Below, in pieces: positions 5,992 through 11,580 of a DNA stretch of 64,000 nucleotides. The stretch spans positions 62,001-126,000 of the forward strand of contig JAWQJJ010000005.1 of assembly GCA_033485155.1 (NCBI GenBank), given 5' to 3'. Origin of the DNA: Methanomassiliicoccus sp. GTDB lineage: Archaea > Thermoplasmatota > Thermoplasmata > Methanomassiliicoccales > Methanomassiliicoccaceae. The position numbers and the translations under genes were made by a program. How positions within the stretch are numbered: position 1 is the first letter of the stretch; each line of letters starts with the position of its first letter. The notes under the pieces were generated by a model. The model was given only the letters and a program-made list of their open reading frames with translations, did not search any database and was not told the origin of the DNA.

Positions 5992-6702
5992 TCAGCCCAG
6001 CGGGCGCTTCACCGGGCAGGCCTTGAGGCACATCCCGCATCGCAGTCCCCCCAACTCGCCGAACATGTACTCCTTGCACCTATGGCGATCGATCTCTCCG
6101 GAAGCCGATAAGGCACCCACCGGACAGGCCTCGACGCATCGGCGGCAATCCTTGCACTTCTCGCTCAGCAGGCTTCGTTCCCGGTCGGTGGGCCCGAGGT
6201 CGGCGTCGGTGATTATGCCCATGAACCGGACACGGGGCCCGTACTGGTCGGTAATCAAGTTCTGGCTCAGACCGTACTGCCCCAGTCCGGCCAAATATGC
6301 GGCGTAGCGCAGCGATATGCCGCCCCTGAGCGTCTCCCGGTCTGCGTACCAGTAACCGAACTCGCTCCCTTCCGCGGGCTCGATCGTCGCTTGGTGTCCC
6401 CGCCGCTCTAGCCACCGTCCGAGATCGAAGGATATCTGCCGCAGACGAACCGTGGCGGCGAGCAGCGAGTTGGTGTACTCTCCCCGCCCCTGGGGCAGGG
6501 GCTCGATGGACCCTTGGAGCAGGGCGACCCCTACCACGACCACCGCGCGGCAATCGGACATGATGGCTTGGGGTCGGCCGCCCCTGTAGCTGTCGTCGAG
6601 GAACCCCTCGGCCGGGGCGATCCCGAACAGGTCGGCACCCAGGTCCTCGCTCAACTTCAACAGCCCATCGGTCAACTCCTTTATCTCCATCGCCCCGAAC
6701 AT
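5992..6702 (-). CDS. QueG-like double [4Fe-4S] cluster protein
   Basis: About 236 residues. An N-terminal region typical of the epoxyqueuosine-reductase family (GADLFGIAPAEGF) is followed by a substrate-domain-like middle part. The C-terminal two-cluster ferredoxin domain carries CKDCRRCVEACP and CGMCLKACP, plus an extra Cys in HRCKEYM. Bacterial QueG reduces epoxyqueuosine with a cobalamin cofactor, but archaea are not known to make queuosine, so the substrate here is unknown; a corrinoid or other redox role is possible. Starts at 6717, 6702 or 6690 are all possible. An upstream extension to 6912 looks non-coding. It is divergent from the corrinoid methyltransferase cluster. Confidence 0.75.
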   Translation of the reverse strand: MFGAMEIKELTDGLLKLSEDLGADLFGIAPAEGFLDDSYRGGRPQAIMSDCRAVVVVGVALLQGSIEPLPQGRGEYTNSLLAATVRLRQISFDLGRWLERRGHQATIEPAEGSEFGYWYADRETLRGGISLRYAAYLAGLGQYGLSQNLITDQYGPRVRFMGIITDADLGPTDRERSLLSEKCKDCRRCVEACPVGALSASGEIDRHRCKEYMFGELGGLRCGMCLKACPVKRPLG

Positions 6703-6804
6703 GGTGTCGGGAGACATCAATGTAGCGATAGATAGGTGAAACGTTACCGAGGTGTGACAATGATGATGCTTGCTGCAAACGATCTGATTACAATTTTCCT
6801 TTTC

Positions 6805-6840
6805 TGGATGGAGAAACCATCCATGTTCGACTTTTAATAA
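6805..6840 (+). promoter_or_regulatory. Inverted repeat and TATA box before the C1 module
   Basis: TGGATGG (6805-6811) and CCATCCA (6817-6823), spaced by AGAAA, form a perfect 7-base inverted repeat. TTTTAATAA (6832-6840) follows as a TATA candidate. The repeat lies just upstream of the TATA, where archaeal activators or repressors bind. A strong Shine-Dalgarno, GGAGGAGG (6902-6909), precedes the first ATG. Confidence 0.45.
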
Positions 6841-6915
6841 CTTAGAAGACGGTGATGAAGCGACCAAGCATGAGGTCTTTTCACGTCGTGCTAGGTCCGA
6901 TGGAGGAGGCATTCA

Positions 6916-8016
6916 ATGGCTAGTGAAATGACACCGACACGTAGAGCACTCGCTGCAGTTCTCGGAGGAAGGGTGGACTATGTTCCGCCCGCGAATCCTC
7001 TCGCACAGACGACGAACGAACTTATGAGGTTCGCAAACGCAGAGTGGCCCAAGGCCCATTTCGACGCAAAGATGATGGCCGATCTGGCTGCGGCACCTTA
7101 TGAGGTGTGCGGTATCGAGGCCGCCAGGCCGCAGTTCGATATTTCTTTGGAGGCCGAAGTCCTGGGGTGCAAGCTGGACTGGAACAAACCAGATAGGCCC
7201 CCGGTGATGGGGCCAGCCTACATTGATCCCGGGGACATCACCTGGCCCGATAATTTGGAGGAAGCAGGAAGGATCCCTCATGTGCTAGGCGCCATAGACA
7301 TATTGCGCAAGCGATATGACGGCAACCTACCGATCATTCCCGTCCTGACGGCCCCCTTCACGGTGGCCGGACACATCGCGGGGGTGGAGAACCTGGTGAT
7401 GATGACCGTGACCGATCCAGATAAGGCTCATACGTTCATCAATGCAGCCACTGATTTCTGCATCGAGTATGGGAGGTTGCAGACCGCCTACGGGGCGCAC
7501 ATGCTATTCCCGGCCGACCCCTCGGCCTCGGGGGATCTGATCTCCGGAGAAACATACAAGGAGTTCGTTCTCCCGTACCACAGGAGGATGGCCGCTGAGA
7601 TCAGTTGCCCTCAGATCCTTCATATCTGCGGCAATACTCGGGCCTTATTACCTTACATCCGGGAGAGCAACATCGACTGCTTCTCCTTCGACAGCGTACC
7701 CGCATGGTACGTCCGCAAGACCCTGGGCAACCGGATGTCCATCCTGGGGAGCTTGGATGTCATCGACCTCATGCCTAACGGCACCCCGGAGCAGGTTTAC
7801 GCCCGTACGGTGGAATGCATCCGACAGGGTGTGGATGTCGTGGGCTCGGCCTGTGATGTGTCCTATGGAACTTCCCTGGACAACCTAAAGGCGTACGTGC
7901 GAGCGTGCAGAGAGACCCCCATCCCGGATTATGATGACGTCGAGTCGATGGTCCGCGAGATCGGGGCGGGCAAAGCCAGGAGGATGAGGGCCGAGAGTCT
8001 CGGAGGTGGTATGTAA
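6916..8016 (+). CDS. MtaA/UroD-family corrinoid methyltransferase
   Basis: A 366-residue member of the uroporphyrinogen-decarboxylase-fold methyltransferases (MtaA, MtbA, CmuA). These move a methyl group between a corrinoid protein and a thiol such as coenzyme M in the cytoplasm. The expected zinc ligands are visible: His236 and Cys238 in LHICGN, and Cys313 in SACDVSYGT. The N-terminus [20 protein letters not shown] also fits MtaA. Its stop overlaps the next start by one base, so it is translationally coupled to its corrinoid protein. It could be the CoM-methylating enzyme (MT2) or, as in methoxy-aromatic MtoB-type enzymes of the same fold, the substrate demethylase (MT1). Sequence alone does not decide. 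Confidence 0.85.
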
Positions 8017-8849
8017 TGGTCAGGCACATGGATGTGTTGGTAGAAGAAATGCTGGAGTTGAGGGCAAGAGACCCTGCACGTTACCGGCGGCTCATCCAAG
8101 AGGGCATGCTGGTTGAGCTGGGCTTCGACGTGACGACCGGAGATTCCAAGATGCCTACGGTCGAAGAGATCAGGGCCAAGTACCGCCCCCATGAGGCATC
8201 CTACGCCGCCATAGCTGAGTCAGTCATCGCTGGCAACCGGGCAAGGGTAAAGGAATTGATCTCCTCCTCACTGGACCAGGGCAAGGATCCGGTGGACCTG
8301 GTCACCAACGCGCTGATGCCGGGCATTCAGACCCAGTGCGAACTGTACGATCTGGGTAAGGCGTTCGTGCCGGAGATACTGATGTCTAATGACGCCATGC
8401 AGGGCGGCATCCAGCTTTGCCAGGCGAAATTAGGAGACATTCCCAAGAAAGGCAAGCTCGCCACCTTCGTGGCCGAGGGCGACCTCCACGATATCGGCAA
8501 GAACATAGTGGCGGCCATCCTGAGGGCCAACGGCTTTGACGTCCTCGATCTGGGGAGGGACGTCCCCACCGCTAAGGTGGTGGCCACGGCCAGGGAGAAT
8601 GGGCTGCAGATGATCAGCGGCTCTACCCTGATGAGCACGACCAAGGCCGGTCTGAAGAGAACGGCCGAGACTCTTGAAGAGGAGGGTGTCAACGTTCCCC
8701 TAGCCTGCGGTGGAGCGGCTGTATCCAAGAGTTTCGTGGATACTTTCGGCAACTCCGTTTACGGGAGGTCTCCGCTGGATGCGGTCAAGATCGCCTCGGA
8801 GATCTGCTCGGGCAAAGACTGGAAGGAGACCCGGAACGCCCTCCACTAG
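8016..8849 (+). CDS. MtaC-like corrinoid protein
   Basis: Carries the methyl group on cobalt between the two methyltransferases. 277 residues: an N-terminal helical cap (about 60-145) is followed by the Rossmann B12-binding domain. The lower-ligand motif GDLHDIGKNI holds cobalt-ligating His158, with the supporting SGSTLMSTT and CGGAAVSKSF motifs further on. The C-terminal part resembles methanol corrinoid protein MtaC more than methylamine MtmC/MtbC. MtaC genes are usually next to mtaB, which is absent here. The stop is TAG; reading through would add only 14 residues, so it is taken as a true stop. Confidence 0.88.
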   Translation: MVRHMDVLVEEMLELRARDPARYRRLIQEGMLVELGFDVTTGDSKMPTVEEIRAKYRPHEASYAAIAESVIAGNRARVKELISSSLDQGKDPVDLVTNALMPGIQTQCELYDLGKAFVPEILMSNDAMQGGIQLCQAKLGDIPKKGKLATFVAEGDLHDIGKNIVAAILRANGFDVLDLGRDVPTAKVVATARENGLQMISGSTLMSTTKAGLKRTAETLEEEGVNVPLACGGAAVSKSFVDTFGNSVYGRSPLDAVKIASEICSGKDWKETRNALH

Positions 8850-8887
8850 GCGGAAACCTTTTCCCTTTTCCTTGACCGAGGGATAGC

Positions 8888-10006
8888 TTGAACGTGGCGG
8901 GAATCGGTGCTGGCGGCTCTTTCACCGACTGCGTGCTTCTGGAGATGCCGGGAACAAAGGTCATCCAGACGACCAAGGTCCCAACTGAGAAGGGAGATCT
9001 GCCGGCAAGCGTGTTGAGATGCTTCTCCGCATTGTCCATTCCTTCCCCCTTCCTTCTGTCCCGGTTATGTGTCTCTACCATTCTCGCCACCAACGCTATG
9101 GTGGGGGGCACGAGGAAGGATGTATTCGCCCTGTGCATCGGCATCGCCCCCAAACGCTCGATGGAAAATACCGGCGAGGTCGCGGTGATCGATGGGAGAC
9201 ATGATCCCACGGGTCCGGAGGTCCGGCTCCTGGGTCTACCGGCTTTACGGTCGGCGATCCACAGGTGCGCCAAGAGTTCCTTCGTCATCTCGGCCCGCTT
9301 CGAAGCAAGGAACCCCGAGCATGAGCTGATCGCCTACCGGGGGGTCCTGGAAGCTTGCCCCCAGGCTATAGTGGTGAGAGGGAGCGACCTCACCAGAGTG
9401 CTGGGAATGGAGGACCGTTTGTACCTGGCAGCCAAGAATGCCGAGCTTATCCATGTTATGAGGTCGCTGATGAAGGAGATCGCACCGGCTATCGCCGTCC
9501 CCGAAAGCTTGATTTACTTTCTGAAGGGCGACGGAAGCCTGGTATCAACCGAGGAGGCGACCCTCCGACCCATCCTCAGGGTAGAGATTCCAGTGGTGGG
9601 GATTGGCGCTCCGGTCCACTCATTCCTCGACCTTGTGACGGGATGGATCGACTGTCCGATCATCATTCCCCCGCACCATGAGGTGGGCAACGCCATGGGC
9701 GCGGTCTGCACCGAAGTGCTGGGTCGGATGGAGGTAATGCTCCGATACGAACCCGGGCTCGTTCAAGGCGATGAGGTGATCGCCGATCATGCTACCACCG
9801 GCGACGGCCAGAAGGTGTCCGGGTATCGGGAGCGGGCGGTCGTCTTTGCCATCGAACAGGCCACTGACGAACTACGGGAGTACATGGAGCACAGCGGCAT
9901 CCGAAGCTCTGATACCAAGGTCGAGGTCAGGGACATAACCTGTATGGAATGGAGCCTCCGCAAGGTGGCCGAGACCGTGGTTAGCATGACCACGGGGGAG
10001 AGATGA
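8888..10006 (+). CDS. Shortened hydantoinase/oxoprolinase-like protein
   Basis: 372 residues, well below the usual 500-700 of this ASKHA-fold family. The N-terminus has the family pattern (GIGAGGSFTDCVL, then VSTILATNAMVGG) and the middle has FLKGDGSLVSTEEA. The sequence then jumps to the family's C-terminal motif, VVGIGAP...IIPPHHEVGNAMGA. The segment normally lying between (around the SGPA motif) is missing, with no frameshift. Starts are TTG 8888 or GTG 8894; GAGGGAT (8878-8884) suits GTG better. It ends overlapping ramA by 4 bases. Given its place, a role in making or maintaining the corrinoid methyltransferase system is inferred, but the function is unknown. Confidence 0.7.
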   Translation: MNVAGIGAGGSFTDCVLLEMPGTKVIQTTKVPTEKGDLPASVLRCFSALSIPSPFLLSRLCVSTILATNAMVGGTRKDVFALCIGIAPKRSMENTGEVAVIDGRHDPTGPEVRLLGLPALRSAIHRCAKSSFVISARFEARNPEHELIAYRGVLEACPQAIVVRGSDLTRVLGMEDRLYLAAKNAELIHVMRSLMKEIAPAIAVPESLIYFLKGDGSLVSTEEATLRPILRVEIPVVGIGAPVHSFLDLVTGWIDCPIIIPPHHEVGNAMGAVCTEVLGRMEVMLRYEPGLVQGDEVIADHATTGDGQKVSGYRERAVVFAIEQATDELREYMEHSGIRSSDTKVEVRDITCMEWSLRKVAETVVSMTTGER

Positions 10007-11580
10007 TGCAGGCGATTTCGATCGACATAGGGACCAGTGGAATACGAGGGCAGCTGCTCGACCTCAGACGGCGAAAGGTCCTCCGAACTTGCTTAACGTC
10101 ACGCAACCCACTGCCCGGGGCCAATGTTATGGATCACCTGGACTTCGCTATGGAGCAGGGGCTGGCGCTGGCCCACGAGGTATTGATCGGGGCGGTCAGG
10201 CAAATCATCAATGTACTCGACCCTGCTTCGCTGGAGCGGATCGCGGTGTGCGGAAACCCCATACAGATATCCCTGTTCGAAGGAATCGAGATCAGGGATC
10301 TGGCATACGCCGGGAAGAACAAGCTTAGATCACAGGGCATAGAGCCCCCCGATCGCAGAGGTCATATCGCCAACGGAGGGAGCCTCGGTCTCGGAGTGGA
10401 CGTTGAGGTGCTCATTCCCCCGGCCATCCGCCACGAGATCGGCGCCGATGCGCTGGCCATGATGCTCAAGTCTGGATTTCTGGAGGGCGATCGGTGCATG
10501 GTCACCGATTACGGCACCAACGCCGAGATGGCGTTGAAGGTCGGCGATGACATTTACACTGGCTCGGCCGCGGCCGGTCCGGCCATCGAGGGACAGTCGA
10601 TCAAGGCGGGCATGCTGGCCTCCCCGGGCGCGATCAGCGACATCATACACACTCCCGAGGGGTGGCAGACCCTGGTCCTTGACGACCGTCTCGAGCCCCA
10701 GGGGGGCGCCCTCATCGGCCTGAGAAGCAATGCCCTTAAACTACGGGGCCTCCGGGCCAAGGGCATAACTGGCACTGGAGTCATCGCCCTGATATGCGCA
10801 GGATCAGAGATGGGGCGAGTGATACTGCCACGCATTACGGGAGGTGACATATTGCTTGATCGTGGGGTCCGGTTCACCACGGCGGACCTGTTGGAAGTGG
10901 GGAAGGCTATCGGAGCCATCCGGGCCGGGCACATGACGCTAATGGTCGAGGCCGGCCTCGACCCCGGGAGCCTGGGCACGATGTTCATGGCCGGGGCCAG
11001 CGGCACCTATGTCGACGCTAGGAAGGCCCAGTCCGTCGGCATGGTGCCTGCATTGGCCTCCCGGATCGTTCAGATGGGCAACACCTCTTTGGAGCTGGCC
11101 AAGGATCTCGCGGTGGAGCCTGAGCTCCTGGACCGCCTCAACGACATGCGAAGCCATCTGCTCGCCCGTCATGTGATGTTTGCCACATCTCCAACCTTCA
11201 GCGACATATATCTCCAGGAACTAGCATTCTGGACGGAGGGCATGCCTCGCGAGAGGTACTTGAATAACCTCGCCTCCTTAGGAGTGCCCGTTCCCGTCCC
11301 GCCCCGGGAGCCGACGATCATCGAACGAAGGAGACGGACGGATATCTGGGAGGTCGGAGGGTCGCTCGATATCATTGACATCTCGGTCCGCCTTGAGGGC
11401 TCGTGGGAATGCAACCGCTGCTTGCGATGCGTCAAAGCCTGTCCTGAGAGAGCATTAACACAGAAGAGTGATCGCTTCATGGTCGACACCGGGAGATGCC
11501 TGGGGACTGCCTGCCGCCGCTGCGAGGAAGCTTGCCCCCAGCGCAGGTTCTCGTTCTCCGAGATGATGCTTGAGGGTTGA
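10003..11580 (+). CDS. ramA: RamA-type corrinoid-protein reductive activase
   Basis: ATP-dependent activase that reduces accidentally oxidised Co(II) back to Co(I) on corrinoid methyl carriers. 525 residues. The N-terminal ASKHA ATPase domain begins SIDIGTSGIRGQLLDL and continues with the RamA hallmark LPGANVMDHLDFA. A long DUF4445-like middle follows. The C-terminus has two [4Fe-4S] ferredoxin motifs, CNRCLRCVKACP and CLGTACRRCEEACP. In Methanosarcina RamA serves methylamine corrinoid proteins. Here it is the last gene of a module with an MtaC-like carrier, so that carrier is its likely client. The start ATGATG overlaps the previous stop. Confidence 0.9.
   Translation: MMQAISIDIGTSGIRGQLLDLRRRKVLRTCLTSRNPLPGANVMDHLDFAMEQGLALAHEVLIGAVRQIINVLDPASLERIAVCGNPIQISLFEGIEIRDLAYAGKNKLRSQGIEPPDRRGHIANGGSLGLGVDVEVLIPPAIRHEIGADALAMMLKSGFLEGDRCMVTDYGTNAEMALKVGDDIYTGSAAAGPAIEGQSIKAGMLASPGAISDIIHTPEGWQTLVLDDRLEPQGGALIGLRSNALKLRGLRAKGITGTGVIALICAGSEMGRVILPRITGGDILLDRGVRFTTADLLEVGKAIGAIRAGHMTLMVEAGLDPGSLGTMFMAGASGTYVDARKAQSVGMVPALASRIVQMGNTSLELAKDLAVEPELLDRLNDMRSHLLARHVMFATSPTFSDIYLQELAFWTEGMPRERYLNNLASLGVPVPVPPREPTIIERRRRTDIWEVGGSLDIIDISVRLEGSWECNRCLRCVKACPERALTQKSDRFMVDTGRCLGTACRRCEEACPQRRFSFSEMMLEG

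Follow-up and report, generated by a model that had tools for sequence, protein, structure and literature searches.

The four-gene block at positions 6916-11580 of the window, that is, of the whole analysed stretch of 64,000 nucleotides from a Methanomassiliicoccus sp. (assembly GCA_033485155.1, contig JAWQJJ010000005.1), is, judging by its sequence, very probably an mtsA-mtsB-ramA operon coding for a methylated-thiol:coenzyme M methyltransferase in a methylotrophic methanogen that depends on H2. Orthology, gene order, the metal ligands and purifying selection on mtsA and mtsB are observed directly; the methylated thiol:coenzyme M activity and the exact sulfur substrate we infer by analogy with Methanosarcina barkeri. 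The system is already known, and mtsAB has been reported earlier in Methanomassiliicoccales. An earlier reading of the DNA made without database searches (hereafter the sequence-only reading) had described the block as lacking a recognisable substrate methyltransferase, which does not hold, since the orthologues of the pair are MtsA/MtsB, two characterised proteins that together act on methylated thiols and do not require a separate MT1. The sulfide that it had listed among possible methyl donors fits this orthology, but the undescribed methylotrophic substrate that it had proposed is not supported: with the block assigned to the known MtsA/MtsB system, there is no new substrate to postulate.

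The block consists of four genes on the same strand, and all the ORFs were confirmed, along with the zinc and cobalt ligands named in the sequence-only reading:

6916..8016, plus strand: mtsA orthologue (P0001), a 366-aa UroD-fold Zn methyltransferase of the MtaA/CmuA family with His236, Cys238 and Cys313
8016..8849, plus strand: mtsB orthologue (P0002), a 277-aa corrinoid carrier with the cobalt ligand His158 (PF02607 and PF02310)
8888..10006, plus strand: truncated hydantoinase/oxoprolinase (HyuA)-like ASKHA ATPase, 372 aa, TTG start
10003..11580, plus strand: RamA-type corrinoid reductive activase, 525 aa, with an ASKHA domain and C-terminal cysteine motifs for two [4Fe-4S] clusters

All four had been called overlapping, which is correct for genes 1 and 2 (1 base) and genes 3 and 4 (4 bases) but not for genes 2 and 3, which are spaced by 38 bases. 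In the Pfam and NCBIfam profile searches P0001 (40.1 kDa) matches PF01208 and, at 460 bits, the MtaA/CmuA family TIGR01463. P0002 (29.9 kDa) contains B12-binding domains, and the only Pfam match of the third gene is PF05378, corresponding to the hydantoinase N-terminal half. The role of the fourth gene as the activase of the system is supported by a TIGR04270 score of 674.8 bits against a cut-off of 500 and by the presence of PF14574; its C-terminal Fer4 domains match as well, individually mostly below the Pfam cut-offs. Genes for MtaB, MttB, MtmB and MtbB were sought in the block and none was found, in agreement with the sequence-only reading, and MtaB and MttB are encoded elsewhere in the genome. 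Upstream, on the minus strand (5992-6912) and divergent from mtsA, there is a ferredoxin-like protein gene with weak matches to QueG/reductive dehalogenase models, for which the relatives showed no counterpart at the same place; as called, the ORF extends with a long N-terminus over the region upstream of mtsA, and a start near 6690 is likelier.

The identification of the pair relies on three reference genomes. The MtmC of one of them (G157) is a 100% match over 169 residues to PDB 3EZX, which we take to be a M. barkeri protein, and this genome was therefore identified as M. barkeri. Another (G163) has an MtaA that is a 100% match to 4AY7 and was accordingly identified as M. mazei. The third (G029) is the rumen isolate ISO4-H5, as its CRISPR array of 35 copies near 1,153,890 is as published (PMC5011839). 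The M. barkeri genome has six TIGR01463 proteins, two of which are orthologues of P0001 with masses of 40.2 and 40.1 kDa, each gene overlapping that of a 29.6- or 29.7-kDa corrinoid protein, respectively, while the other four, at 36-37 kDa, are not flanked by such a corrinoid gene. These two copies of mtsAB are arranged in tandem (L191 7249-13801), with a ramA homologue after the downstream one only. The published masses are 41 kDa for MtsA and 30 kDa for MtsB of M. barkeri (PMC7374477), the published sequences being UniProt Q48924 and Q48925 (PMC10689795). Since no other M. barkeri pair fits this description, P0001 and P0002 are taken as orthologues of MtsA and MtsB, the final link to the published proteins being drawn from the identity of the species, the masses, the adjacent genes and the exclusion of other pairs. 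MtsA is known to catalyse both half-reactions (Tallant 2001), first moving the methyl group of methyl sulfide onto Co(I)-MtsB and then onto coenzyme M, so that a missing MtaB, MtmB or MttB partner is just what would be expected; the suggestion of the sequence-only reading that the first gene product takes up the methyl group itself is very probably correct.

In the tree, all twelve Mts-type proteins, P0001 included, form one clade with 100/100 support, from which MtaA and MtbA are excluded. The tree of the carriers agrees with this, P0002 grouping with the partners from M. barkeri, M. mazei and ISO4-H5 apart from MtaC. The His-Cys-Cys zinc ligands are invariant across the Mts clade; this is the zinc site of S-methyltransferases, whereas O-demethylases have carboxylates or other residues instead (PMC10418091). 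P0001 is 81 and 77% identical to the two M. barkeri copies. The identity of P0002 to the M. barkeri carriers is only 53-58%, which was counted against its identification as MtsB.

The orthologues of P0001 share 73-97% identity with it (69% for one fragment), and the next most similar proteins are paralogues at no more than 37%. According to counts from the tables, an orthologue is present in nine of the 15 genomes of its own family, Methanomassiliicoccaceae, in 21 further genomes, all belonging to a family labelled f2, and in 17 of the 31 Methanosarcina genomes; it was sought and not found in the Methanosarcina genome G155. Besides M. barkeri, the pair occurs in M. mazei and ISO4-H5. In the Methanosarcina and Methanomethylophilaceae operons examined, the core comprises the UroD-family gene, the corrinoid gene and usually ramA downstream, with no hydantoinase gene. 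In Methanomassiliicoccaceae, the block lies between pyrG and the aIF2-beta gene with the hydantoinase gene included, and its conservation at this place in related genomes is far beyond chance. The block sought in other genomes was recovered in the relatives, although with the hydantoinase gene inside the operon only in Methanomassiliicoccaceae. The within-family omega values are 0.02-0.05 for mtsA, 0.06-0.12 for mtsB and 0.09-0.15 for ramA, and mtsA and mtsB are under strong purifying selection.

The presence of mtsAB in the order is consistent with earlier accounts: Borrel (2014) noted that, of three genomes, only that of Ca. M. intestinalis lacked it, an environmental Methanomassiliicoccales MAG was described with MtsAB, and ISO4-H5 was described and drawn with MtsA and MtsB. 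In the ISO4-H5 genome (L188 6405-13423), the mtsAB-ramA block faces away from a second UroD-corrinoid pair, with an MFS transporter gene, likewise divergent from the block, lying between the two. As this second pair is only 2.5 kb away, the published naming alone does not settle which of the pairs was meant. The arrangement is reminiscent of mtpCAP.

Several genomes show local peculiarities. In the closest relative, G005 (UBA6), whose mtsA is 97% identical to that of the window, ramA is missing at the locus (L056 9432-9439), where 7 bases separate the end of the hydantoinase gene from the aIF2-beta ORF. An apparent 866-aa fusion in the same genome proved to be an ORF-calling artefact, with tblastn giving a normal 277-aa mtsB. 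The genome G009 contains, besides the pyrG-linked block, a second mtsA-type gene (C12:550132-551223, L192) with 81% identity to P0001, possibly a separate acquisition. The genes downstream of the block in Methanosarcina, read by eye, were considered as a clue to the substrate and discarded, being housekeeping only (PAP2, PdxS, PdxT and a pyridoxamine-oxidase-like protein).

The third gene is an accessory confined to the operons of Methanomassiliicoccaceae, and its copy in the window is probably decaying. Its orthologues in seven relatives have 572 residues compared to 372 in the window, where exactly 200 codons (600 bp) are deleted in frame after residue 229 (LRPI/LRV). The deletion removes the second ASKHA motif (V/I)(V/I)D(I/V)GGTTTD, and the first motif reads GIGAGG in place of GIDVGG; the intact N-terminal and catalytic ASKHA halves looked for in a HyuA protein are not present in this copy. 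The deletion junction is located at similar LRPI/FRPV coding stretches, and the deletion possibly arose by short-homology recombination. The omega values of the gene (0.20-0.27) are above those of mtsA, mtsB and ramA, but those of the intact copies are 0.15-0.28, so it is the deletion and the motif loss, rather than omega, that are the main evidence for decay. The copy in G009 has an aberrant C-terminus, as after a frameshift. In G005, which has lost ramA at the locus, the hydantoinase gene is intact and mtsA and mtsB are kept. Being broken in the window, aberrant in G009 and missing from the operons examined in Methanosarcina and Methanomethylophilaceae, the gene is dispensable for the core Mts system.

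It is very unlikely that the intact ATPase of Methanomassiliicoccaceae serves Mts, for instance as a second ATP-driven factor of corrinoid maintenance or by freeing methylthio compounds from some larger precursor, with the window organism representing a loss of this branch. A similarly small chance is given to a shift of the Mts-clade enzyme in this family to some other thioether or selenoether donor, in which the hydantoinase-like ATPase would assist in setting the methylated moiety free. Such a shift is in line with the restriction of this gene within the operon to Methanomassiliicoccaceae and with the existence of UroD-type S/Se-methyltransferase clusters with other proposed donors (PMC10418091), but sits badly with the close similarity of mtsA to the M. 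barkeri genes, its low within-family omega and the state of the hydantoinase gene outlined above.

An accessory methanol system, in which the MtaC-like carrier would be methylated by a distant MtaB with P0001 acting as MtaA, is most improbable. The genome encodes twelve UroD-family and twelve corrinoid proteins, four RamA proteins, an MttB with an in-frame TAG and McrA, the last of which marks it as that of a methanogen. It has two full mtaB genes and a third one split over two contig ends, and the best solved relative of P0002 is indeed MtaC (PDB 2I2X). However, three of the corrinoid proteins, MtaC, adjoin the mtaB genes, and P0002 is only 32-34% identical to them and belongs to a different clade, so the block is not a detached part of the methanol system. 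The mtaB genes looked for elsewhere in the genome do exist, but each of the two full ones has its own MtaC, and P0001 is not placed deep in the MtaA clade, where the sequence-only reading would have expected the enzyme of an ordinary methanol system, but in the separate Mts clade. As MtaA, P0001 was rejected with 252.8 bits against the NF040654 cut-off of 400, and as MtbA with 202.4 bits against the NF041608 cut-off of 600. P0002 was rejected as MtaC with 219.4 and 215.0 bits against the NF040655 and NF040669 cut-offs of 420 and 450, respectively, and has no mtaB neighbour. Another region of the same genome (C2:40.2-55.4 kb, L066 4241-19426) harbors two corrinoid genes with a divergent UroD-family gene between them, a CobW-like GTPase gene, an HTH_10 regulator gene and three full-length hydantoinase/oxoprolinase genes; its substrate is unassigned, making it more of an orphan than the mts block. 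An aromatic O-demethylase of the MtoB/MtvB type, suggested by the sequence-only reading on account of the common UroD fold, has a negligible chance, since the zinc ligands of P0001 are of the S-methyltransferase type and not carboxylate-substituted, the protein belongs to TIGR01463 while MtoB is a relative of MtvB and not a member of the MtaA/CmuA family (PMC8630106), and the block has no MtrH-like acceptor methyltransferase.

Under the preferred MtsA/MtsB assignment, RamA with ATP and a low-potential donor would bring the cobalt of MtsB to the reduced Co(I) state, and Zn-bound MtsA would activate the sulfur atom of dimethyl sulfide, methanethiol or methylmercaptopropionate, loading the methyl group onto Co(I)-MtsB before handing it on from the cobalt to coenzyme M. 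The methyl-coenzyme M would be reduced with H2-derived electrons, and the truncated hydantoinase-like gene would be unnecessary for the methyl transfer. The lineage would thus probably make methane from methylated sulfides. The tight clade also allows the mtsA genes of gut and environmental methanogens belonging to it to be named as such rather than as "MtaA/UroD", and there are small evolutionary points in the sporadic spread among Methanosarcina and Methanomassiliicoccales and in a hydantoinase gene decaying within an operon.

Compared to known systems, the block is closest to MtsA/MtsB of M. barkeri, sharing with it the UroD-corrinoid order, overlapping genes, masses of about 40 and 30 kDa, a single clade, the lack of a separate MT1 and, in one M. 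barkeri copy, RamA downstream; the difference is the hydantoinase-like gene that Methanomassiliicoccaceae have between mtsB and ramA and that is truncated in the window. MtpCAP, which handles methylmercaptopropionate with the same ingredients, and MtsD/F/H of M. acetivorans likewise use a UroD methyltransferase and a corrinoid partner on methylated sulfur compounds, but the former has the order corrinoid-UroD-transporter and the latter are single fused proteins (PMC7374477). Type 1 mlp clusters combine an MtaA-like protein having the His-Cys-Cys site with a corrinoid protein and a Ram activase, but possess two or three different Mlps and are mostly bacterial, unlike the single MtaA-like protein of this methanogen (PMC10418091). 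MtaA and MtbA share with P0001 the TIGR01463 family and the zinc ligands, and MtaA (4AY8/4AY7) is the best fold match of its AlphaFold model, a mediocre one (pLDDT 66.6) matching with a TM of about 0.6 and a large rmsd. Their identity to P0001 is 31-32%, comparable to the approximately 30% reported among MtsA, MtaA and MtbA of M. barkeri (PMC10418091), and they form separate clades and lack its approximately 30 extra C-terminal residues.
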